NCBI GenBank assembly: GCA_902776195.1
Contig: CACYPF010000012.1
Span: 1-64,000, forward strand
Direction of reading: 5' to 3'
Source of the DNA: an uncultured Prevotellaceae bacterium
Lineage (GTDB): Bacteria > Bacteroidota > Bacteroidia > Bacteroidales > Bacteroidaceae
Length of the DNA: 64,000 nucleotides
Part shown: positions 902 to 47,452 of the stretch, in pieces
Layout of the letters: each line of letters begins with the position of its first letter
How positions within the stretch are numbered: the stretch's first letter is position 1
Made by a program: the position numbers and the translations under genes
Notes under the pieces: model-generated
Told to the model about the DNA's origin: nothing
Database searches by the model: none
Seen by the model: only the letters and a program-made list of their open reading frames with translations

Positions 902-985
902 ATGGCAAAAGACAAGACAAGGAATCATGGGGTCGGTTTTGAGACCTGCCTGGCAGGTGGAAGCCAATTAATCAGTGAACACTAA
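902..985 (+). pseudogene. Truncated radA 5' end (MAKDKT remnant)
   Basis: The frame opens with MAKDKT, identical to the first six residues of RadA at 10150, then runs into unrelated sequence and stops after 27 codons at 985. It is the coding tip of the duplicated radA promoter region and encodes no RadA domain. Whether the peptide is made is unknown. It overlaps by a few bases the end of the minus-strand gene at 982. Confidence 0.7.
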
Positions 986-1422
986 ATAATTAAAAGTATA
1001 ATATAAACAATTGAAAATATAAACAGCCCCCATGCCATTAATTTCCATTTAAAATGTTCTCTGTCAGGCTTTGAGGCAAATTTCCAATAATATTTTTCTT
1101 CTTTTTCATCTTTTTCAAACCAATAATATTCTAAAATTAAAGAAAGCACTATAATAATACTAAAATAAATAATTTTATAGACGCTGTTTCTGAACAGAGT
1201 CTGTGTAATTTCCATATTTATCAAACTCATAAAGGAATAAGATATACATAAGAGATAATTCATTAGCATAAGAAGGAAAAACTTTTTAGCCAACATAGCA
1301 TTGTAACTTACTTTACCATTATGGTAAACAACAGGCTCAAATTTTTGAGTGAACAAATGTAAACCGTATAATATGTGATTCATAAAACACACCATTTTCT
1401 TTTCATTTTTAATTGTTATCAT
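982..1422 (-). CDS. Small multi-spanning membrane protein, unknown function
   Basis: A 146-residue AT-rich protein with three or four hydrophobic segments (about residues 45-65, 80-105 and the C-terminal 20) separated by a charged stretch rich in Glu and Lys. I do not recognise the family. It has the same length and plan as the next gene (1518-1964): a short N-terminal helix with aromatic YG and YT motifs, paired central spans, an acidic/basic linker and a terminal span, so the two look like diverged paralogs. It lies last in the minus-strand array, behind junction 1462-1490. The start could also be the Met at codon 10 or 14. A membrane immunity protein is possible from context only. Confidence 0.6.
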   Translation of the reverse strand: MITIKNEKKMVCFMNHILYGLHLFTQKFEPVVYHNGKVSYNAMLAKKFFLLMLMNYLLCISYSFMSLINMEITQTLFRNSVYKIIYFSIIIVLSLILEYYWFEKDEKEEKYYWKFASKPDREHFKWKLMAWGLFIFSIVYIILLII

Positions 1423-1517
1423 TTTTTCAAGTTCTCAGATTTAAAAGCATAATACCACTTTAGGATCATTTAGAACCGTCCCCAGCTTTCTCGCAGCTTT
1501 CTCGTCGATGACAGACT

Positions 1518-1964
1518 TTAAAGATTGTTGTAATATAATTTATTCCCTATTATAAAGAGGACAATTCCAAAGAAGAATATAAAAGCACCTATTATCATCC
1601 ATTTAATTTTTACAGAGCGAGATTCTTGGTCAAATTGTTCAAAATAGGTTAAGCCCTTATCTCCTTCTAAAGATGTCATTTGTGTTATAATAAAATAGAT
1701 TGTTATAAACAGGAAAAAATACACAGTCTTAAAAGTTGAACTATCATTTATAAAAAAAGGGAAAATAAATCTCAATAGATAGCATAGTAGAGCCATACAA
1801 CCATCTACATATAGTAGTACCATAAAACAACACAGCTTAAACCCCAGTTGTCCCCGATAATAATTCTTTCTTCCCACATATGTTATAGGAATATCAAGTC
1901 CTCTCGTATAAAGATATATACCAAAATATATTCTATTTATAAACTTAATTAATCTTTCATTCAT
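1518..1964 (-). CDS. Small multi-spanning membrane protein, unknown function
   Basis: A 148-residue protein with hydrophobic segments near residues 42-72, 82-100 and 122-142 and a short charged loop before the last span. It is a likely distant paralog of the 982-1422 product. Its ATG overlaps the stop of an upstream leader ORF as ATGA (1961-1964), so translation is probably coupled to that leader. Promoter, leader and 5' junction (1978-2000) lie directly upstream, and a 3' junction follows at 1462-1490. No family is recognised. Context suggests an immunity-type or other defence accessory gene, but nothing in the protein proves it. Confidence 0.65.
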   Translation of the reverse strand: MNERLIKFINRIYFGIYLYTRGLDIPITYVGRKNYYRGQLGFKLCCFMVLLYVDGCMALLCYLLRFIFPFFINDSSTFKTVYFFLFITIYFIITQMTSLEGDKGLTYFEQFDQESRSVKIKWMIIGAFIFFFGIVLFIIGNKLYYNNL

Positions 1965-2056
1965 AATGCAAATAGAGAAATTTGGGGACTCAATGATCCA
2001 CTTCTCCTAAGGATAGGTGAGCTCCTTTTGTATATTTGGAAACAAGTTTTTGTCAT
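1961..2056 (-). CDS. 31-residue leader ORF of the cassette array
   Basis: The frame starts MTKTCFQIYKRSS, reads through the 5' junction as SGSLSPQI and ends in TGA, which overlaps the ATG of the 1518-1964 gene (ATGA). The same leader start occurs at 2760 (fused in frame to the lipoprotein gene) and at 46459 (21 codons). It sits just downstream of a TACCTTTGC promoter. Its role is probably to deliver ribosomes to cassette genes that lack their own initiation signals, like ORF11 in integron attI1 (analogy only). Confidence 0.55.
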   Translation of the reverse strand: MTKTCFQIYKRSSPILRRSGSLSPQISLFAL

Positions 2057-2078
2057 TTGTTATATTAATTAATACTGT

Positions 2079-2087
2079 GCAAAGGTA
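2079..2087 (-). promoter_or_regulatory. Cassette promoter, -7 TACCTTTGC
   Basis: The minus strand reads TACCTTTGC followed by CAGTATTAATTAATATA and the leader ATG at 2056. The same block is present at 46430-46458 on the plus strand. It fits the Bacteroidetes sigma-ABfr consensus TAnnTTTG. Confidence 0.7.
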
Positions 2088-2130
2088 TTTCTTTTATTTC
2101 ATAGAACAAAATATTTCACAATAAAATGGT

Positions 2131-2673
2131 TCATTCAGAGTCCCCAGTTTTCTGAACTACTCTGTATGTATGGAAATATATAACATCATCCTTACTTTTA
2201 ATTTCATAATAAGGTATATATTTATTATTTCCTCCGAAAGGATCATATTTCATGCCTATAGAAAGAATCCTTTTCCCTGATTTATCATACTTATTATATT
2301 TCAATCTTCTATTGGATTCTATATCATAAACAATATAAACCTCTTTAACATCATTAGCATTATAATCAATATGCCATCTTCCATATAAAGTTATACGGGT
2401 CGTATCATTTTTATCTTCCGTATCATGATATGGCTCTTTATAGGATAAATATCTCGGATAGTTTGAAACAACACATGAGCCGTTTTCATTAAATGTCAGA
2501 TGATAATTTTCATCATCAGATATCCAAGTTCTACCACAAACGTCTTTTTTTTCTATAGAATGATCAGGTAGCAATTGCATATATATTGTTTTTTTATCAT
2601 CATCATCAAAAGTACATGAAATTAATGATGTTGAAAATATACATATAAGAACACTTAATAATATTCGTCTCAT
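2131..2673 (-). CDS. Predicted lipoprotein, unknown function
   Basis: A 180-residue product with a lipoprotein signal: basic start MRR, hydrophobic run and lipobox SLISC at about residues 16-20, followed by an acidic DDDDKK tether. The mature part is polar and beta-rich and contains a GRWHIDYN segment. The open frame extends upstream to 2760, because the array leader is fused in frame through the junction as SGSLRVPKFPKM. The first start after the junction (2673) is chosen because it gives a normal signal peptide. The last residues TGDSE and the stop come from the 3' junction repeat. A surface or periplasmic immunity lipoprotein is an inference from context. Confidence 0.7.
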   Translation of the reverse strand: MRRILLSVLICIFSTSLISCTFDDDDKKTIYMQLLPDHSIEKKDVCGRTWISDDENYHLTFNENGSCVVSNYPRYLSYKEPYHDTEDKNDTTRITLYGRWHIDYNANDVKEVYIVYDIESNRRLKYNKYDKSGKRILSIGMKYDPFGGNNKYIPYYEIKSKDDVIYFHTYRVVQKTGDSE

Positions 2674-2760
2674 TTTAGGAAATTTGGGGACTCTCAATGA
2701 TCCACTTCTCCTAAGGATAGGTGAGCTCCTTTTGTATATTTGGAAACAAGTTTTTGTCAT
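2674..2760 (-). CDS. Leader segment fused in frame to lipoprotein gene
   Basis: The same leader as at 1961-2056, but the junction GGATCATTGAGAGTCCCC here keeps the frame open. The leader therefore continues without a stop into the lipoprotein at 2673. Translation from 2760 would give the lipoprotein a 29-residue basic N-terminal extension. It is listed to record the fusion, since an independent peptide is not expected. Confidence 0.45.
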
Positions 2761-2793
2761 TGTATATTAATTAATACTGTGCAAAGAAATGGA

Positions 2794-3489
2794 TCATTCA
2801 GAGTCCACAGCTTTCTCCTGTTCCATATATGAGATAAAAGACTTGCAAAATTGTTGATATTGTCTATAATGACGATTATCAGCTATCGCTTGCTTGTCAT
2901 ATACATTACAGATGAATGAATCATCTGTTTCCCCTTGTAATGTTTTCTGCTCCATAGACTTTAATCTATGACTCATATAATTTAAAGCATGGTTTTTCTC
3001 CCCCTCCAAATAGTAATAAATTGGCAAGTTATGAAGTTCATCCGCCTGGTTAATCAGTAGACCACTCTCCATATCATTAATGATATTACTGGTCACAGAA
3101 TATCTCCCAAGGTAAGGTATGGCAAAATCGACAATACATCTATACATGTCATCTACTATCATCTTAAGATCAGTATCTGATATTACGTCTGTGACTTTCC
3201 ATGTTTTGTAAGTTTTTTCGTGTGTAAGGTATCCTATGGTAGTCCCTATTGTTCCCACAGTATAACATTCCAATTGTCTGCCAATCTCTATTACTTTAGG
3301 GTATGACACTCCTACATAGATGTTATAATATCTGACAAAATGCTCATTCTGGTTAGAATATAGAAAGTTTATTATTTGCTGGACTCCATTAAACTCTCTT
3401 ATAAATCCATCTCCACCTTTTCTCTTAAACCCGAGCGAGACAAGATGTCTTTCCAGATAATTATTATATACAATTGATTTCTGTTTCAT
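2794..3489 (-). CDS. DUF4304-like protein, candidate immunity protein
   Basis: A 231-residue soluble protein with no signal peptide. The N-terminus (residues about 8-45) has the pattern 'lvsLGFKRKGgdgFIRefngvqQIINF', which resembles DUF4304-type proteins common in Bacteroidota defence and immunity loci. The family call is tentative. A possible promoter TAAATTTGC lies about 10-15 bp before the ATG, and the 5' junction 3549-3573 is further upstream. The C-terminal residues VDSE and the stop lie in the 3' junction (2789-2812), as in the neighbouring lipoprotein gene. It is AT-rich compared with the core genes. Confidence 0.65.
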   Translation of the reverse strand: MKQKSIVYNNYLERHLVSLGFKRKGGDGFIREFNGVQQIINFLYSNQNEHFVRYYNIYVGVSYPKVIEIGRQLECYTVGTIGTTIGYLTHEKTYKTWKVTDVISDTDLKMIVDDMYRCIVDFAIPYLGRYSVTSNIINDMESGLLINQADELHNLPIYYYLEGEKNHALNYMSHRLKSMEQKTLQGETDDSFICNVYDKQAIADNRHYRQYQQFCKSFISYMEQEKAVDSE

Positions 3490-3605
3490 TTTTCTGCAAA
3501 TTTACAACTTTATTTTAATAATATAATCCCCGAAGATTGTTTTTTCAGAAATTTGGGGACTCAATGATTCACTTCTCCTAAGGATAGGTGAGCTCCTTTT
3601 GTATA

Positions 3606-4247
3606 TCACTTGACTAATCCCAATTTTTTCAAAATGGGGATGACGACATTGGGAGAATAACAGTTCTGCTCTTTTGATGCGGCTTTGTATTCCGCCAGGA
3701 GGTCATCATGACCTTCCAACAATTTGAGCATAAACTTCTCGTCAATAGGTTCCACAAAGGCATCCTCGGCGGAAGTAGGCGACAAGACATAACACTGGTA
3801 GTTGTCATTGTTCGTTGAAGCAGCGATAGCTCCACCGATTAATCCAAACATGAAGGCTGCGCCAGCGGTATTTGACCGTGCGTTAGTGCTTAGGGCAATG
3901 AACAGAAAGCGTCCCCTGTCATAAGCCATAGCAGATGAGTACCAATTACCCAACACATTCCCTTCAACCTTCATCTCACGACAATTCACATATAGAGAGT
4001 CATTATGCATGATGAAGCGGGCTTTCTTCTTGAGCAGCTTGTCTGTTTTCTTATCCCCTGTTCTGGGCTTATAGTTGGAGCCTCCCCACCATAATGACTT
4101 GTTACCCGAGCGGTATTCAAACCTCAGTTGCTCTAACGGGAACCATGTATCAGTCAAGTAGTCCAAATACGACAGGCAATACTTATTTTGTGCCTCGCAA
4201 ACAGTTACGAGACTAAGCAGCAATAATAGTAATATGGTCTTTTTCAT
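3606..4247 (-). CDS. Exported protein, unknown function
   Basis: A 213-residue product with a clear signal peptide (MKKTILLLLLLSLVTVCEAQ). The frame is open upstream to 4298, but the ATG at 4247 gives the signal peptide directly at the N-terminus. The mature part contains KARFIMHNDSLYVNCREM and a Gly/Ala-rich segment (about residues 135-150) that may insert in a membrane. Its -7 element (4287-4295) lies inside the left arm of the long inverted repeat whose other arm is at 45115-45430. The stop abuts a truncated array leader and 5' junction (3549-3605). No family is recognised. Confidence 0.65.
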   Translation of the reverse strand: MKKTILLLLLLSLVTVCEAQNKYCLSYLDYLTDTWFPLEQLRFEYRSGNKSLWWGGSNYKPRTGDKKTDKLLKKKARFIMHNDSLYVNCREMKVEGNVLGNWYSSAMAYDRGRFLFIALSTNARSNTAGAAFMFGLIGGAIAASTNNDNYQCYVLSPTSAEDAFVEPIDEKFMLKLLEGHDDLLAEYKAASKEQNCYSPNVVIPILKKLGLVK

Positions 4248-4278
4248 TGTATTATTCTTATTATTTAATAACATAAAA

Positions 4279-4562
4279 TTTATACTGCAAAGGTACAAAA
4301 TTAGTTACAATTTGCAAACACTTTTACAACTTTTTATGAAAAGGAAAGCACGTAAAGTGGTGACGGTGACGGTTACAGTTTAGTGAAATCGTACTTAATA
4401 TAAATATACATGTTTTATTCGCATTTTGGGATTCTCATTTTTGGAAAACTGTAACCGTCACCGTTTTTATTGTGCATCAGTTACCGACTGAAGGACGCTC
4501 AGTTACCGACTGAAGGGTGCTCAGTTACCGACTGATTCCAGCGACAGTGCGCACAATTAACA
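4279..4562. repeat. Left arm of long inverted repeat (pair with 45115-45430)
   Basis: This is the reverse complement of 45115-45430 with few differences. Shared parts are the promoter TACCTTTGC block, GTGACGGTGACGGTTACA and its inverted partner, the three 22-bp-period TCAGTTACCGACTGA units (4477, 4499, 4521) and the GATTCCAGCGACAGTGCGCA tail. The left arm has about 34 extra bases near 4381-4411; the right arm has one fewer 22-bp unit and different sequence between the two blocks. The arms are about 40.5 kb apart. Confidence 0.85.
4287..4295 (-). promoter_or_regulatory. Promoter, -7 TACCTTTGC, for exported protein gene
   Basis: The minus strand reads TACCTTTGC about 40 bp upstream of the ATG at 4247, in the arm of the inverted repeat. 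The identical promoter in the other arm (45414-45422) drives a 19-codon leader instead. Confidence 0.65.
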
Positions 4563-4704: not shown

Positions 4705-7700
4705 CTATGGTGTGATCTTGGTGGAGTACTCTAAGGTTATGTCACCTTCTCTCTCTAATTTGCGCGTGGTGATGTCGGCTGTGGTAATATGTTGAATAGT
4801 GTTTGCTTGGAAAGCATCCATATCCCAATTGTCTACACGATCTACGATGTCGGCATTTATTTGCCATGTACCGCTTCCTGTGTAGGTAATTTCATACTCC
4901 TCGATATTTTTCTTTCGAGTTATCTTGTACTCACAGTCTATTTTGTGGCTAATTGTACCACCTAATAGATTATAGAACCAATAATAGCTATTACTTGGGT
5001 CTTCTGCTTTGTTCATGATGTTTACAAAGTCTTCGATGGTTTTTTCCGTAAACTGATGAGTAGTCTTGATAGTGAATTTACCACTTGCTTCCAATCCGTT
5101 ATTCTCAAACTTGCCTACAATGTCATCACCGATAGTGAAAATACCGGAATTCTCTTGCACGGTTATAAAGTTGTGACGTTGGAAGAATTTCTCTAACTCA
5201 GTCTGGAAACGTGCCTTGCGATTCATTCCTCCGTCCATTTCAATAAATGCACCTGGCGTGGATAAACGCATGTATTTTCTATCGAATGGGTGTGTACCAT
5301 AACATTCATATTCTGTTTCAATTTTATATGGAACATAACTCAGCTTGAGATTCTTCAATTTCGGTGCTTCCACCTCAACACCACCACTGGCAAGGTCAAT
5401 GGTAACAAACAATTTACTACCTACTGCAGTTATTTTGAAGTCGAAGGCTTTCTGGTCGGCTTCCTCTAAATCTGCCAGTGTGATGTGAGGCCGTAAATTG
5501 TAGTGCAGCAGTGAATATACAGTGCACCCCATAGAAGCTGTTCCTTCATCGCTAATGACATACTTTGAGTATTTCATATCATCAGGAGCATCAGTAAATC
5601 GCACAGTCCACCCAGCGTACTTGGAGATATTTCCCTCCTTGCACGACGAGTCGATAATCTTGATATATACACGAGTGTTTACTTGGTCTGCCACGTCTTT
5701 CAAAGACTTATAGTAGCGGTTGAAGGCTACTGTCTTTAAGTTTTCTTTGATAGCTTCGAAAACTGATACCAGTTCACCATTCATCAGTTCGGCAAAATAT
5801 TCATCCTCTAACTGCTTTTGGAGACTGGGTTGAACATCTGGCACACTAGAAAAGAGTGTCCAGAAATTTGTTTTATGACAACATTCAGACCAGGCTAGAT
5901 TAAATTCATTATCCCAGATTCTGCTTAAGTATAACCGTACAGATTGTTCTATATAGGCATCGAGGCGATTTTTTGTCATGTTGCCCTTGGCAAAAGCAGG
6001 TAAGAAATATTCGTACCAATCAGCAGGAGACCGATAGCAACTCTTCACGTCATCATCCTTTTTCCCTTTGCTGCTATAGAAATAATGATAGGCATCTCTG
6101 GCCATGTCGTGGGTGCGTTCCTGAGCCTTGGTACCAAACTTTTGGAGTGCTACACCGATGAAAGCCACAGTGGCCATGGAGGCCGACATAATGGGGGTTC
6201 CTATTTGTGTGGCGAGTGAGCCGGAGACATAATTTAGGATGGTGCTTAATGTACCAGCAGCTACACCCGTATTATCGTCTTTGATATAGGCAATGGCCAC
6301 ATCGAGGATATTCAATGCCATATTGAAATAGCCAATATTCTGTACGATGTCGTTTATTACGGTCGGACGGAAATAGAGCGGATCGCCGACGGCATTGACC
6401 ATGCCCCAGAGGCCATCAAGACCTATGCTCTGCCAAATACCTATGTCATTTTTCACGTCCATAACCATTTTTACGTTTGGATCGTCACTTGACACCAATG
6501 CCAGCAGCTTTTGGGCTGCCTCGTCAAGGGTCTTGTTCAAGTCTATCTTTTGCCCATAATAGAAATTCAGAGTTTCCAATAGGCCTCCTTCTCCAAGTAG
6601 GAAGAAGATGCCGTAGTCAGACAGATGGTTGGTGGTAATGGTGATGCTACCGGTCTGTTCGTCATAAGTGAAGAAAACTGGTTCCCACTCACCCGCCTCT
6701 TTATTGTAATAGGCTGCATATACCTTTTCGTTTTCAGCCAGGGTCACTGGGATGGTAATTTTGGCAGTGCCATTAAGCTCATGGCGCCCGTCAGACATAC
6801 TTAAGTCGATGGAGAATCCGTGTGTTATTCCCTCCATGACATTAGGTTTCAACACCGAGTTGCGAACGCAGAGCTGCACGTCGCTGTCTATCACTGTTGG
6901 GTCGAACCGTACTTTGCACTTCTGAGCTTCAACAGTGAGGTTGTTTTCATCCAAATCGAATATCTCAGCATTCTCATAAACAAAGCCTGGTGCCCATTCA
7001 ATGCTGTCAACGGCAGCTACCGAGGTGACGAGGTCTTCTTTGCCGCTGCGCCTGATGATCACCTGCTTGCCATCCTCGCTCACCTCTATGCTCTTAATCT
7101 CGTTCACAGGGATGTTCACACGTTGGCTACCATTCTCATCGGCTGCGCTGACCACCATGTTATATTGCAATCCCTGTGGAGGCATAGGCATATACTCTTC
7201 CTCTGCAAAGATTCTGTTGAATCTGCGCCAGCCGGGGGCATTACGGTAGAGTTCTTCAGTACCTACAGGTACATACAGTGCTGGGTCGTTCTCGAATATT
7301 TGGTCGTTGAATGTATCGTCGCTGATCTTGGGAGGCACAACAGCTAAGCAATATAGCAAGTTGGGGGATAAGGATGTAAGGTCTTGGAATGCTCCGTCCA
7401 TTTCGAGGATGTGACCTGGTATATCGGGGGCATCTTTAGTGCGAATACTTTTGGGTTCTAGTTTCACAACTGTCTCAGGAATCTCTGAGAGGAAGCGCCT
7501 ACGGTTGACTGTCATTAGCACGCTCGTACCGTTGCTGTTGCAGAGATATTCCTGGGTGTATGGAGAACAGAGGAAATGTGGATTATTCTCCACTTTGAAG
7601 AACGACAGAATTGCTCCCCTGAAAGCATCAGGCTCGATGGATTTAAGTTTGGGAGGGACAATAAATGTCTCATTAGGAAATGTGCAACTGGCAAAGGCTT

Positions 7701-11613: not shown

Positions 11614-13635
11614 ATGATGTACAAACCAAATTTCAATCAGCGCAAGGCACTCCGCTTCCACCATTTTACCAGGAAGGGATATGCACTTTTTGCCTGCTTG
11701 GGACGAGTAGTAACCATCAGTGTGCTGAGTGTAGCGACACTGACCTCTGCAAGTGCTGCCATTGACGACAAGGGCATGACAGAGACTGTTACCACCAATG
11801 ATGACCAGACAGACAAAGAGGCGACGTTGGATGACGTGGAAGTCACCGGGTCACGCGCACCGCTTGCATTAGGGCAAGCAGCGAGAATGGTCACTGTACT
11901 GAGCCGTGAGGATATTCAGGCGGCGCCAGTACAAAGTATTAACGATTTATTAAAGTACGCTGTAGGCGTGGATGTCCGTCAACGAGGACCGATTGGTGCA
12001 CAGACGGATATCGGAATCAGAGGCAGCACGAGTGAGCAGATCACCGTCTTGCTCAACGGCATCAACATCTGTGATCCACAGACAGGTCACAACGCTTTCG
12101 ACTTCCCCTGCGACATCGCGGACATCGAGCGCATAGAGATCCTTGAGGGTCCCGCAGGTCGTGTGTATGGCACCAGTTCGCTGGTGGGGGCGATTAATAT
12201 CGTGACGAAAGATGCCGGAAGCAAAACGGCTGATGTACGGCTGGAGGGTGGCTCCTTCGGTTACCTGTCGACAGCAGGCCGCATAGGCTTGAACCGGCAC
12301 AGTCTGAGTGCCAGCTACACCCGCAGCGACGGTTATTCACGGTCGAAAGCAGGAGCCCTGAACAGCGACTACAGCGGAGGTAAAGTGTTTTATCAAGGCG
12401 GATATGCCCATGAGAACCTTCGTCTGAAATGGAATGCAGGACTGTCCGCGAAGGGGTTCGGCTCGAACACGTTCTACAGTGCGAAGTTCGACGAGCAGTT
12501 TGAGAAGACGGTGAAACTCTTCACTGCTCTGCAGGGAGAGCTGACAGCGGGACCGTTACATCTACGCCCAAGTATCTACTGGAACCGTTCGCACGACCGG
12601 TTTGAACTAATCAGAGGCTCTGAGGACAAGGTACCTTTCAACTACCACCGTACGGATGTCTTCGGCATCAACCTCAACAGTTACTTCGACTGGCTGTTGG
12701 GACGAACAGCCTTTGGTGCCGAGTTCCGCAATGAGGACATTGTCAGTACTAATCTCGGTGAGCCACTCTCCGACCCGTTCAGTCATTATAAGGTGGGACT
12801 GAACCGCTCTAACCTCTCCTTCCATCTGGAGCATAACATCCTGTTGAAACGTTTCACCCTCTCGGCTGGCTTCATTGCAGTGAAGAACACCTGGAACCAG
12901 ATGCCGTTTAAGGTATATCCGGGTATCGATGCCAGCTACCGTATCGGTGACAACTGGAAGATCTATGCCTCGTATAACTCATCCCTCCGCATGCCTTCCT
13001 TTACCGAACTGTACTACAGCGTAGGAGGTCATAAGGCAGACAAATACCTGAAGCCAGAGGAACTGCATGCTATCGAGGGCGGTGTGAAATTCAACACGAC
13101 ACACTTCAGTGCCAAGGCAAGTGTCTTCCACCATCATGCCCGCAACATGATTGACTGGGTGATGGATACCCGCGAGACGGAACCCGTCTGGGAGAGTGTC
13201 AACCACACGAAGGTTAACACTACCGGATTGGAGGCATCTGCCATTCTTCACTCTTCACTCTTCACTCTTCACTTAGCCTACTGCTACCTGCACCAGGGCA
13301 AGGACACGGAGGACTATCTACAGTCGCAATATTCCCTTGAGTATCTGCGTCACAAGCTGACGGCATCATTGCTCCTGCATCTCATGAAACAGCTCGACCT
13401 CTCGGTGAACTATCGTTTCCAAGACCGTATGGGAACCTATACGACTGTCGACGGAGAGGTGAAGAACTATCATCCCTACTCCGTAGTAGACGCGAGACTC
13501 AGTTGGAATGCCGACAGCTATTCCATATACATAGAGACAAACAACCTGACCAGCAAGCGGTATGTAGACTACGGCAACGTGCCACAACCCGGGTGCTGGG
13601 TAATGGCTGGTGCCAGATACCATTTCAACCTTTAA
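11614..13635 (+). CDS. TonB-dependent outer membrane receptor (BtuB/ZnuD-like)
   Basis: A 673-residue receptor with a long signal region (about 1-50, ending ATLTSASAA). A TonB-box-like segment TLDDVEVTGSRAP is followed by the plug (about 75-190; GIRGSTSEQITVLLNGI and VYGTSSLVGAINIVTK) and a 22-strand barrel ending in ARYHFNL. The size and plug resemble cobalamin and zinc receptors more than SusC; the substrate is not determined. The convergent neighbour is a His-rich CobW-type metal GTPase, which makes a metal or cobalamin role plausible. In-frame heptamer repeats (four TCTTCAC, 13245-13272) encode part of a barrel strand or loop, and slippage there would frameshift the gene. Confidence 0.85.
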   Translation: MMYKPNFNQRKALRFHHFTRKGYALFACLGRVVTISVLSVATLTSASAAIDDKGMTETVTTNDDQTDKEATLDDVEVTGSRAPLALGQAARMVTVLSREDIQAAPVQSINDLLKYAVGVDVRQRGPIGAQTDIGIRGSTSEQITVLLNGINICDPQTGHNAFDFPCDIADIERIEILEGPAGRVYGTSSLVGAINIVTKDAGSKTADVRLEGGSFGYLSTAGRIGLNRHSLSASYTRSDGYSRSKAGALNSDYSGGKVFYQGGYAHENLRLKWNAGLSAKGFGSNTFYSAKFDEQFEKTVKLFTALQGELTAGPLHLRPSIYWNRSHDRFELIRGSEDKVPFNYHRTDVFGINLNSYFDWLLGRTAFGAEFRNEDIVSTNLGEPLSDPFSHYKVGLNRSNLSFHLEHNILLKRFTLSAGFIAVKNTWNQMPFKVYPGIDASYRIGDNWKIYASYNSSLRMPSFTELYYSVGGHKADKYLKPEELHAIEGGVKFNTTHFSAKASVFHHHARNMIDWVMDTRETEPVWESVNHTKVNTTGLEASAILHSSLFTLHLAYCYLHQGKDTEDYLQSQYSLEYLRHKLTASLLLHLMKQLDLSVNYRFQDRMGTYTTVDGEVKNYHPYSVVDARLSWNADSYSIYIETNNLTSKRYVDYGNVPQPGCWVMAGARYHFNL

Positions 13636-44943: not shown

Positions 44944-45072
44944 GCGAATACCTATCAGGATGGAAGGATGATTAACTACGCATACAGTGCGACAGGAACT
45001 AAGTTGTCGGTAACCTATGAATCATTGAGAACTGTCCCCAAATTTCACTGGGGATATTATCCAAGTTTATGA
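44944..45072 (+). pseudogene. Fragment of an RHS-repeat protein core
   Basis: Starting at the base after the Rid stop codon, one frame reads ANTYQDGRMINYAYSATG, then TKLSVTYE, which fits the Bacteroidota RHS core pattern (DG..I.Y.Y.A.GTKL.V.Y). It then passes through an array junction as SLRTVPKF and stops at 45072. There is no start codon or promoter. It is the remnant of a polymorphic toxin gene whose body is gone, and it links the junction repeats to RHS tips. Confidence 0.7.
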
Positions 45073-45114
45073 ATACGAAAAATGGATCATTGAGTCCCCC
45101 AATTTCCTATTGGG

Positions 45115-45430
45115 TTAATTGGTTGTGCGCACTGTCGCTGGAATCAGTCGGTAACTGAGCATCCTTCAGTCGGTAACCGACTTCCTTCCGTTGACAATGC
45201 ATAAGGTACAACATTTAACATGCGATGTCAAAAGTTCCTGCCCCAAACGTGTACGAAAACGTGCACAATAAAAACGGTGACGGTGACGGTTACAGTTTTC
45301 CAAAAATGAGAATCCCAAAATGCGAATAAAATGTAACCGTCACCGTCACCACTTTACGTGCTTTCCTTTTCATAAAAAGTTGTAAAAGTGTTTGCAAATT
45401 GTAACTAATTTTATACCTTTGCAGTATAAA
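45115..45430. repeat. Right arm of long inverted repeat (pair with 4279-4562)
   Basis: The reverse complement of the left arm: TGCGCACTGTCGCTGGAATC, two 22-bp-period units (45144, 45166), the GTGACGGTGACGGTTACAG block and the TACCTTTGC promoter (45414-45422). The stretch 45181-45270 between the shared parts is unique to this arm. Confidence 0.85.
45414..45422 (+). promoter_or_regulatory. Promoter, -7 TACCTTTGC, in right repeat arm
   Basis: The same promoter block as at 4287-4295. Here it reads into the leader ORF at 45451. Confidence 0.6.
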
Positions 45431-45450: not shown

Positions 45451-45510
45451 ATGTCTCAAATACAAACATCTGTAAGTGGATCATTGAGAGTCCCCCCAAA
45501 ATTTCCTTAA
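45451..45510 (+). CDS. 19-residue leader ORF running into a junction
   Basis: The frame reads MSQIQTSVSGSLRVPPKFP and stops. Its second half is the junction repeat translated in the same frame as the lipoprotein leader at 2760 (SGSLRVPKFP). No full gene follows directly, so the cassette behind it looks lost or degraded. Confidence 0.4.
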   Translation: MSQIQTSVSGSLRVPPKFP

Positions 45511-45659: not shown

Positions 45660-46358
45660 ATGAAAGTAACAAGAAAGCAGTTGTTTAAGAAGCTTATTCC
45701 ATTCTTTGAGAAGGAAATGGGATATACATATTTTAAGGACACAATCTCTCCTGCTAGTGGTTTATTTGCAAAGAAAATTGATGAGAAAATTTATGTTTGT
45801 ATAGGTATAGATACAAGTAACTTGTATGAAAATGCATTTGATTGTAATTATTATATGGGACTATCTCTGACTTATGCATTATTATATGAAGGAATTAGAG
45901 ATGCCTATTTGCGATCTTGGCAATTGTTCTCAGAAGAGGAATTGAATAAATATCGTAGTATTGGCGCATTTTCTGAGTATTTTTGGTGGCACAGCGATGA
46001 TGATAATTCTATCGAATCGTTTAAGGACGCAGTGCGACTAACCGAACCACGATTTATAAATAATTTATGCTTAAGAGAACGCATTGCTGCTAATGAAGAA
46101 GCTAAACATCAGCACGACCTAACAACAAAAGTCAGAATGCTTGTACAATGTGGAGTATCTGATTTTGAGACTCAATTCGTCCCAGAAAAAGAAAAAGATG
46201 GTATCCCTTTAGTTTGGTTTACTGCTGCTGAGTTTGTCCAAAAAGATGAAAGATACTTCAATAAGCATACAGTGTTTAGACTTGCTGCAGAAGCATATCG
46301 GCAATACATACTTGACAATGGGAAAGCTATAGAATCTCATAGGAGAACTGGGGACTGA
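45660..46358 (+). CDS. Soluble protein of unknown function in cassette islet
   Basis: A 232-residue AT-rich protein without signal peptide or membrane segments. N-terminal KQLFKKLIPFFEKEMGYTYFKD and a central NYYMGLSLTYALL and WWHSDDDNSIESF are visible. The general plan (short basic helix, then a beta-rich aromatic region) is similar to the DUF4304-like 2794 product, but I cannot assign a family. The C-terminal TGD and stop lie in the 3' junction. An immunity role is inferred from context only. Confidence 0.6.
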   Translation: MKVTRKQLFKKLIPFFEKEMGYTYFKDTISPASGLFAKKIDEKIYVCIGIDTSNLYENAFDCNYYMGLSLTYALLYEGIRDAYLRSWQLFSEEELNKYRSIGAFSEYFWWHSDDDNSIESFKDAVRLTEPRFINNLCLRERIAANEEAKHQHDLTTKVRMLVQCGVSDFETQFVPEKEKDGIPLVWFTAAEFVQKDERYFNKHTVFRLAAEAYRQYILDNGKAIESHRRTGD

Positions 46359-46429
46359 ATCCATAAGAAAGCTGGGGACTGAATGATCCATTTTCTAGTG
46401 AAATATTTTGTCCTATGAAATAAAAGAAA

Positions 46430-46438
46430 TACCTTTGC
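46430..46438 (+). promoter_or_regulatory. Cassette promoter, -7 TACCTTTGC
   Basis: The same spacer-promoter block as at 2079-2087, here after the 3' junction of the 45660 gene and 21 bp before the leader ATG at 46459. Confidence 0.65.
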
Positions 46439-46458
46439 ACAGTATTAATTAATATACA

Positions 46459-46524
46459 ATGACAAAAACTTGTTTCCAAATATACAAAAGGAGCTCCCCC
46501 AAATTTCCAGAACTGGTCTATTAA
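46459..46524 (+). CDS. 21-residue leader ORF of cassette array
   Basis: MTKTCFQIYKRSS is identical to the left-array leader. The junction is then shortened to PKFPELVY and a stop, 50 bp before the lipoprotein ATG. It records a deletion within the 5' junction, and coupling to the next gene is lost. Confidence 0.45.
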   Translation: MTKTCFQIYKRSSPKFPELVY

Positions 46525-46573
46525 ATGGAGTATATAAAATATATCCTTGGCTTAAAAAACAAAAATTTTGAAA

Positions 46574-47119
46574 ATGAAAAAATTGGTTTTTCTGTTAATA
46601 ACCTTAATAACAGGATGTAGAACAAGCGAGAACAGCATATCTACTGAAGATGGCAAAGCCGTCATATTGGCTATAAAGGAATATGTAAAAGATCATCCCG
46701 ATTATGACCAGTTTTTACTAATAGATTCATGGAAAGAACGCTTTTCTATAGAGAAATATCCCTCTGGATATATTTTAGGACCATATTATCAAGGCATGCT
46801 AAAGAAGATTGACAAATATCAATGTATTGATATTAAAAAATCACGCATTTATATTAATAGTTCTACTCTAAAATTAAATAATGAGATATGTATATTATAT
46901 CAATCTGGAGCAGAAACTTTTGACGAAGATTATTATATCATCAATGATTCGTGGTCAGATTATATATATAAAGCGGTTTTCCTGTATAATAAAGATGGTA
47001 ATTGGTGTGTTAATCATAGACCAGATACTATTTTCGCTCCAAAACGTGTTGAATCTAACATTCATTTCCAAACAGAGGAAAATGGTGGGGAGACTGATTA
47101 TACTAACTTTGGCAAGTGA
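46574..47119 (+). CDS. Predicted lipoprotein, unknown function
   Basis: A 181-residue lipoprotein with lipobox LITGC (Cys at about 14). The ATG at 46574 is preferred to an in-frame TTG at 46568. The mature part is polar with several Tyr/Ile-rich strands (SRIYINSS, EDYYIINDSWSDYIYKAVF, NWCVNHRPDTIF). Not recognised. As in the left array, the gene lies between a leader/5' junction and a 3' junction (47143-47165). A periplasmic immunity protein is possible. Confidence 0.65.
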   Translation: MKKLVFLLITLITGCRTSENSISTEDGKAVILAIKEYVKDHPDYDQFLLIDSWKERFSIEKYPSGYILGPYYQGMLKKIDKYQCIDIKKSRIYINSSTLKLNNEICILYQSGAETFDEDYYIINDSWSDYIYKAVFLYNKDGNWCVNHRPDTIFAPKRVESNIHFQTEENGGETDYTNFGK

Positions 47120-47169
47120 CTTCGTCGATAAAGAAAGCTGAAGAAACTGGGGTCTAAATGATCCATTTT

Positions 47170-47452
47170 CTAGTGAAATATTTTGTCCTATGAAATAAAA
47201 GATTTACTCCGATATCTCCTATGCCTCACTCTAATATCTCCCATAGCTCATTCCAATATCTCCCGTGGTGTACGGGAGATATTCCTTTACCCTATTAGAG
47301 ACTATTCCTTAGGGGGTATGTCTTAGCCTGAAACAGAACCCGTTTTCTCATGTAGTGGATCACTGAATGATCAATAGAACCGACCCCATGATTCTCAAGC
47401 GGTTTTTGCGCAAATTTTCCAAGATTCTCTTGCAAATATCAAGAAATTGTTA
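47170..47452. other. Intergenic region with short repeats and a hairpin
   Basis: After the 3' junction the cassette spacer is truncated before its promoter. Then come three imperfect 22-23-bp units of ATATCTCCYATRGCTCAYTC type (47211-47283), the last forming a 12-bp stem AATATCTCCCGT/ACGGGAGATATT (47255-47283). A degraded junction follows at 47370-47394. No gene is seen. Confidence 0.55.

Follow-up and report, generated by a model that had tools for sequence, protein, structure and literature searches.

Two arrays of short genes and their junctions

The DNA analysed here (the window) comprises 64,000 nt of contig CACYPF010000012.1 from an uncultured Prevotellaceae bacterium (GCA_902776195.1; genome G000), and near its start holds an array of short genes (array A, 982–3489, all genes on the minus strand) separated by copies of one junction repeat, which comparison with transposase loci of the genus identifies as the terminal inverted repeat (TIR) of a TIRYT element, an HUH (IS200-like) tyrosine transposase gene bounded by TIRs. 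The repeat is 23–28 nt long, GAAANNNGGGGAC(x)CTGAATGATCC, and from 3489 down to 982 the order is gene, end GGGGAC(x)CTGAATGATCC, linker, inverted end GGATCATTGAG(x)TCCCC, AAATTTC, next gene, with the linker containing a short leader open reading frame (ORF) and a TTTTG – ~19 nt – TACCTTTG pattern, whose promoter type is presumed here. A scan with GGATCATTNAGAGTCCCC at up to 3 mismatches returned 4 window sites (2128, 2686 and 2791 within array A, and 45478), against 0.14 expected, and 0 of 100 shuffles gave 4. TIR copies with other middles (none, or AACCG) add the sites 1463, 1984 and 3555 and more in a second array (array B, 45.0–47.2 kb), which has the same build on the plus strand.

An earlier note, made from the letters of the window, had proposed a modular array of unrelated, AT-rich cassettes, each with a direct junction copy before its start and an inverted copy at its stop. 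The repetition is real and far above chance, and the low GC content was borne out (30.0% for 982–3489 vs 47.1% for the window). The full arrangement is present at 2131–2673 and 2794–3489, where the inverted copy writes the last codons (GDSE and VDSE, respectively; the direct copy of 2794–3489, at 3555, reads GAATC), and fits the other genes only in part: 1518–1964 has a direct copy ahead of its start and an inverted copy 35 nt past its stop, supplying no codons, 982–1422 has upstream only an inverted-type copy (1463) and downstream a different repeat (922–941), and 3606–4298, with the DUF6563 gene, touches only a truncated spacer (3542–3606). Two of the supposedly unrelated genes, 982–1422 and 1518–1964, are distant paralogs (25% amino acid (aa) identity, E 1e-10). 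The DUF4304 assignment of 2794–3489 was recovered by Pfam barely above the cut-off (23.6 vs 23.2 bits); in array B, 46568–47119 gave a weak NCBIfam match, below cut-off, to a type VI secretion system immunity lipoprotein (E 0.072). Coordinates of all features are collected in the table.

Table. Features of arrays A and B in the window, and features at other loci referred to in the text.
Feature	Location	Strand	Remarks
Second-family TIR GAATCATGGGGTCGGTTTTG, one edge of array A	922..941	+	Motif scan; family flanks the TIRYT gene in L135; further copies in genome
Array A gene 1, small membrane protein (predicted from sequence), paralog of gene 2	982..1422	-	Near-identical copy in tf2-5, 98.9% over 525 nt
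TIR with AACCG middle, beyond the 3' end of gene 2 and ahead of gene 1	1463..1490	+	
Array A gene 2, small membrane protein	1518..1964	-	59% aa homolog behind RHS gene, tf2-5 L164
Complete spacer, miniature TIRYT derivative: both TIRs, promoter-like stretch, leader ORF	1977..2153	-	
Array A gene 3, lipoprotein-like; TIR codons (GDSE) in place of its former C-terminus	2131..2673	-	
Spacer without part of promoter; long TIR hairpin as RNA	2679..2816	-	z -7.7
Array A gene 4, DUF4304, ending VDSE inside TIR	2794..3489	-	
Half spacer, downstream TIR end only	3542..3606	-	From ~3548 common to RUG037
DUF6563 gene, edge of array A	3606..4247	-	98.6% to RUG037 over 734 nt including half spacer
Two TIR copies, left edge of array B	45019..45108	+	
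TIR, array B	45478..45505	+	
Array B gene 1, product of 232 aa without Pfam match	45660..46358	+	tf2-5 copy 93% identical in DNA over 705 nt
Spacer with TIR, promoter-like stretch and leader; inner part of the downstream TIR lost	46366..46509	+	
Array B gene 2, lipoprotein-like	46568..47119	+	
TIR with truncated promoter part, following array B gene 2	47141..47199	+	
Second-family TIR	47369..47392	+	UBA2755 right-flank homology stops inside
TIRs with TCATCGACGAAGTCGCTTGCCAGAGCAAG(..) insert, palindromic parts	L017:875, L027:6867, L161:7143, L163:2671 and 5642, L178:5775		
99% identical segments	L163:1-2597 with L168:6556-7657 and L177:5687-7163		

Other repeats were observed around the arrays. 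At 1480–1500 the outer TIR piece GAGAAAGCTG is tandemly doubled ahead of the full end (pattern search), as if a newer end had attached to what was left of an earlier one; by eye, comparable stacks are also visible at 46350–46389 and 47141–47165, the pattern search giving only 1480–1500. An inverted repeat with a promoter-like stretch (ACGGTGACGGTTACAGTTT) is found at edges of both arrays (4354–4467 and 45273–45352) and at the matching UBA2755 site (L177, about 5430–5620), accompanied in the window by 22-nt units TCAGTCGGTAACTGA (592–651, 4476–4540 and about 45143). Near the contig start, 38–278 forms a large inverted repeat with 117-nt arms that are 77% complementary.

Junctions and spacers compared with TIRYT elements

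TIRYT stands for TIR-associated tyrosine transposase, and some of the TIRs are described as sharing the motif GGGGWSAS (PMC3733652, in the passages on these elements); 20 of 26 described examples belong to subclass 2.1 (PMC6006769, likewise). Within the open-access literature searched, the term was confined to these two papers. In the genus, several longer Y1_Tnp genes (260–300 aa) sit between inverted GGGGAC-type ends. At loci L124 and L103, whose transposase ORFs match Pfam Y1_Tnp, the unit reads GGGGAC(GGTT)CTGAATGATYCACTT, promoter-like stretch, TIRYT ORF ending in ..AKSGS*, and end, with stop and 3' end forming one sequence, AGTGGATCATGA(GAACC)GTCCCC, which writes AKSGS and the stop. These ends are those of array A, in the same orientation as in its spacers and with the promoter-like stretch equally placed; L131 is nearly alike, its upstream end reading CTCGTGATCC. 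Sequence comparison thus showed the junction to correspond to the end of a TIRYT element, and the earlier note's ascription of the design to the cassettes is not supported, since this end flanks the transposase gene itself at L124, L103 and, with small differences, L131. TIR ends also flank toxin–antitoxin pairs, accessory genes standing alone and ordinary genes that appear truncated.

A stop codon inside the downstream end was counted by eye in 12 of 25 distinct frame-resolved TIRYT genes (32 loci given, 6 unresolved, 2 representing the same locus), and the ends that supply GDSE, VDSE, KAGDGSE or WGRF to genes act in the same way. Short, apparently truncated genes ending in the TIR codons ESWGRF or SWGRF were also noted (L177:1684–2037, L173:5792–6175), suggesting past insertion or deletion at TIRs. 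The second motif, which caps the arrays (922 and 47375), belongs to a different TIRYT, whose end it forms at L135. Compared with GGGGWSAS, the TIRs here read GGGGACGG, GGGGACTC or GGGGTCGG, and those of some other TIRYTs of the genus GGGGACAG. When 76 distinct TIR copies are compared, conservation gives out 7 nt beyond TCCCC (..NNNTTTC), so that the element ends with about TTTC. The TIR middle is variable (AACCG in 36 copies, nothing in 20, AG in 17), and 6 copies have a 29–34-nt insert that looks like a smaller element nested in the TIR. As to an origin from Y1 transposases or REP-associated tyrosine transposases (RAYTs; REP, repetitive extragenic palindromic), 30 Y1_Tnp loci retrieved from the genus showed no junction motif, and the link is seen at the longer, 260–300-aa members.

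Because they keep the TIRYT unit's ends, its orientation and the place of its promoter and have lost the transposase ORF, the spacers were shown, on this comparison, to represent miniature inverted-repeat transposable elements (MITEs) derived from TIRYT and bearing a promoter-like stretch. The 25 distinct spacers (85–198 nt, cores included) are short, TIR-bounded, non-coding derivatives. One from the isolate Prevotella sp. tf2-5, with one degenerate end (L163:7906–8103), still encodes the TIRYT C-terminus (85–88% over 26 aa, E 2e-9 and 8e-10), and weaker TIRYT-like remnants are located at array edges in the window genome (L018 on contig C6, E 7e-6) and in tf2-5 and RUG11506 (L163, L171 and L162, E 5e-5 to 3e-4). 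The promoter pattern, called by pattern only, is present in 21 of the 25 spacers, and for 17 of these 21 a co-directional gene follows within 250 nt. Many spacers carry one extra T in the 3' end (GGATCATTGAG instead of GGATCATGAG), which removes the transposase stop, so that in the spacer type of the window the leader ORF points at the next gene, sharing the frame of the lipoprotein ORF and (by eye) overlapping the start of 1518–1964. As RNA, both ends of a spacer are predicted to form a single long hairpin (three spacers gave z -7.7, -3.95 and -8.5). For two single TIRs, folding did not exceed that of shuffles (z 0.84 and 0.33), and they are therefore not called REPs in the strict sense. Plasmid and phage sequences gave no match to the spacer; among viral contigs one stretch matched (L102, IMG/VR), with a TIR and a copy of the DUF6563 gene that stops early.

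The TIRYT/TIRtron elements described by Di Nocera et al. 2013 (PMC3733652; PMC6006769) are alike in having a Y1/HUH gene between TIRs, a motif of GGGGWS.. type, TIRs that overlap the 3' end of the gene, and TIR dimers elsewhere in genomes, and differ in that their published passages on such dimers describe none that bear promoters between immunity genes. REPINs and bacterial interspersed mosaic elements mobilised by RAYT (the subject of PMC3116915 and PMC2817692) likewise consist of two inverted ends and a linker and depend on a Y1 transposase; unlike these, the linkers here carry a promoter-like stretch and a leader ORF, cluster at accessory genes, and are low in copy number (19 exact cores in this genome). 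Among the titles and abstract openings listed from the open-access literature, none joins TIRYT or RAYT ends with immunity arrays.

Array genes and their exchange among genomes

Two window genes have relatives directly behind RHS (polymorphic-toxin type) genes. The window lipoprotein gene recurs in Prevotella sp. UBA2755 (L175, 98.9% over 529 nt), where the copy overlaps the 3' end of an RHS gene (1106 aa, DUF6443 and RHS repeat) and runs for 20 further codons to its own stop ahead of a TIR; the window gene has 7 different codons in their place, the last ones written by the TIR, so it was trimmed and its end replaced. In tf2-5 (L164), the homolog of 1518–1964 lies 50 nt behind a 1735-aa RHS gene, with a TIR next. 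A third gene, outside the window, has a copy behind an ORF that is RHS-like by eye and in part 74.6% identical over 346 nt to the L175 RHS gene (L016), and another between TIRs without RHS (L160, 99.3% over 536 nt). By these RHS-linked copies and homologs, at least two window genes look like orphan immunity genes. Elsewhere in the arrays, Imm-NTF2-2 (tf2-5) and Imm11 scored above cut-off, the Imm11 protein being identical in RUG11506 and at L017 of this genome; other products comprise Imm40 (below cut-off), HicA/HicB, nucleotidyltransferase/HepT and ankyrin proteins, and with such mixed families immunity genes would be a main array content, not the sole one. Bracketed genes in the loci examined (n=30) have a median GC of 31.7% (range 25.7–60.9%). 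Three of 13 loci with DUF4304 homologs in other genomes (L186, L192 and L194) have GGGGACGGTT ends with GATCA-type arms nearby, a fourth (L187) has looser TIRYT-like ends, and the homolog of L194 is ~270 nt from a TIRYT match; other TIR families may serve related genes as the array TIRs would.

The genus samples comprised 150 and 399 genomes, and the DNA searches of the genus scored at most 5 candidates per genome. A 161-nt junction query found 15 pieces in the window genome and was found in 3 genomes of the even sample of 150, the window genome included. The exact gapped core occurs 19 times in G000, 27 in tf2-5, 8 in RUG037 (counted as one genome with G035, the coordinates being identical), 7 in RUG11506, 6 in UBA2755 and 1–2 times in seven others, and the reversed pattern 0 times in all genomes scanned. 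Among named genomes, the pattern marked 33 stretches, of which 22 were Prevotellaceae (6 from tf2-5); these 22 and L075 were scanned, and 10 non-Prevotellaceae stretches, taken for chance matches, were left out. The junction brackets genes in relatives' arrays; single TIRs were also found away from arrays. The clearest array, L070/L160 of tf2-5, has 14 strictly alternating ends over ~6.5 kb (0.5–1.3 kb between ends around a gene, spacers of 140–169 nt with cores), and alternation fails further on, at 11776 and 12301 of L160, at the copy of 982–1422. Since contigs C1, C3, C12, C14, C15, C27, C31 and C37 start or end near TIRs, array edges are missing there.

Array B has a left flank that is 97.0% identical to RUG037 (5608 nt) and 83.2% to tf2-5 (5254 nt), and a right flank that is 98.6% identical to UBA2755 (3390 nt), and despite these matching flanks each of the three relatives holds other genes at the site. 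The outcome that the earlier note had named as refuting its proposal, a gene order fixed and vertically inherited, was not observed. Units of the window genome or RUG037 shared with tf2-5 are 98.7–99.6% identical in five matches, three of which are the 982–1422 unit (98.9–99.6%), and 93% in one (array B gene 1). Matches to UBA2755 and RUG037 (98.6–98.9%) are no higher than the flanks, so only the changed position speaks for movement there. Edges of shared DNA lie at or inside ends for the 982–1422 unit, the MKYYKL unit, the DUF6563 gene towards the next gene, and the right edge of array B (47373). By these identities, recent horizontal sharing of some units was shown, some genes being nearly identical in a species that is more distant. 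Beside array B, segments of 1.1 and 1.5 kb were also observed to be 99% identical between tf2-5 and RUG037/UBA2755, with housekeeping flanks at 83–84%.

Origin and role of the arrays

The reading that we regard as probable is that the junctions are TIRYT-derived MITEs and that the array is a store of orphan immunity genes, detached from their toxins and exchanged at the MITEs. A MITE arriving between a toxin gene and its immunity gene would cut the antidote loose, the upstream MITE would give the freed antidote a promoter of its own, and the downstream TIR would both end its reading frame with a stop codon and contribute to a strong RNA hairpin. MITEs that are nearly identical could then serve as homology handles at which DNA from a related strain is swapped gene by gene, presumably the main route, and TIRYT acting in trans would be a second possible one. 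Edges at or inside ends suit exchange at the miniatures; differing joints would need new joining events or deletions.

Several results count against this reading. No intact TIRYT was found in G000, whose contigs break at arrays, which leaves present mobility putative; loci were seen to turn over, and no clean empty site was isolated. Promoters are not called in 4 of 25 spacers, and 4 of the 21 called face a gene on the other strand. The RHS-like fragments of L016 and L167 have no Pfam match, the 13 DUF4304 homolog loci showed no RHS neighbour by the motif test, and Pfam scored above cut-off for 2/7, 2/10 and 3/10 array products in three scans, not all of them immunity families. Other array genes shared by tf2-5 with RUG11506 or UBA2755 are only 76–92% alike (full range 76% to 99%). 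The same gene is joined to the TIR at differing points (L062 vs L070; the lipoprotein vs L082), and such variable joints are not by themselves produced by exchange within spacers. Gene 982–1422 has no direct TIR upstream, and TIRs also occur singly, away from arrays.

It is unlikely that the units are moved by TIRYT itself, with two TIR elements that flank a gene transposing together as a composite or giant REPIN, single-stranded and in transposase-bearing hosts. Units recur in new contexts, the 982–1422 unit twice in tf2-5 (L077, L078) and the MKYYKL unit in three genomes, their edges lying either at the outer limit of the TIR or further on in the spacer, and TIRYTs with matching ends exist in related genomes, all as such movement would leave them. 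However, no Y1_Tnp match was found in G000, RUG037 or RUG11506 (for G000, 93.55% complete, no PF01797 at E 0.001 and no TIRYT at E 1e-30), and the TIRYT-like genes of tf2-5 and UBA2755 lack these ends; a search of 11 locus genomes gave Y1_Tnp matches in 6, with matching ends only at the L124 gene (G158). The main array genomes thus differ from described TIRYT hosts in having no TIRYT with matching ends, and the ends around the gene units face inward, the reverse of the TIRYT unit.

Somewhat less likely still is passive clutter, in which accessory islands gather harmless MITE insertions that have no role and whose regularity is due to chance. This would account for the TIRs found singly by toxin–antitoxin, HEPN-MNT and ordinary genes, some apparently truncated, but not readily for the strict alternation in L070 (up to its later breaks), the promoter directions, or exchange edges at TIRs.

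The earlier note had likened the array to acquired interbacterial defence (AID) arrays and suggested a tyrosine recombinase near copies. The AID-like reading of array function is supported, not proven: AT-rich, partly horizontally moving immunity-type genes and a repeated intergenic sequence are present, and the recombinase was not found beside the arrays of this genome. In recombinase-associated AID (rAID) proper, immunity genes accumulate at a conserved intergenic motif through an XerD-like tyrosine recombinase, and the co-oriented short, low-GC orphan immunity genes, conserved intergenic sequence and signs of horizontal exchange seen here fit the parts of PMC12247911 that define it. We nevertheless hold it improbable for these arrays, because the motif is the end of an HUH element, the intergenic sequence being its miniature, the cognates seem to be RHS-type proteins, and none of 7 PF00589 matches in the genome adjoins an array (C12 and C2 have none, and on C1 and C6 the distance to the array pieces is about 144 kb and 52 kb), with the limit that C1 and C12 begin at or near arrays, so that far sides are missing there. 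The nearest (C5:38838) is ~5 kb from a single TIR-like site (C5:33837), and no array was seen on C5; the recombinase beside the tf2-5 L162 cluster is XerD adjoining aroQ, 90% and 93% aa identical to the C6 pair of this genome, itself ~52 kb away from the single exact core on C6. Cassettes of integron type, with an attachment site that folds, would suit the long spacer hairpins and the array of short exchangeable genes between repeats, and are very hard to credit given the promoter-like stretches in most spacers, gene-to-TIR joints that vary between genomes, and no integrase (IntI) beside the arrays of this genome.

Orphan tip/immunity arrays occur behind rhs or cdiA genes. The arrays here resemble them in placing RHS-like fragments and immunity-type genes in series (L016, L069/L171), and differ in that modules are separated by TIRs and many genes have no toxin remnant. 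The MITE-based store of orphan immunity genes might extend to an HUH-transposon cassette system, in which MITEs detach, express and trade immunity genes between Prevotella species with no integron or rAID integrase, a generalisation that we put forward only tentatively. The array displays the make-up of the junctions and apparent intermediates, i.e., a pair followed by a TIR, an antidote without its toxin, and an antidote between two miniatures. It thereby offers a concrete, testable route by which antidote and toxin could part, assigns a possible role to transposases of a family that has received little study, and suggests how antidotes may become separable from toxins and spread.

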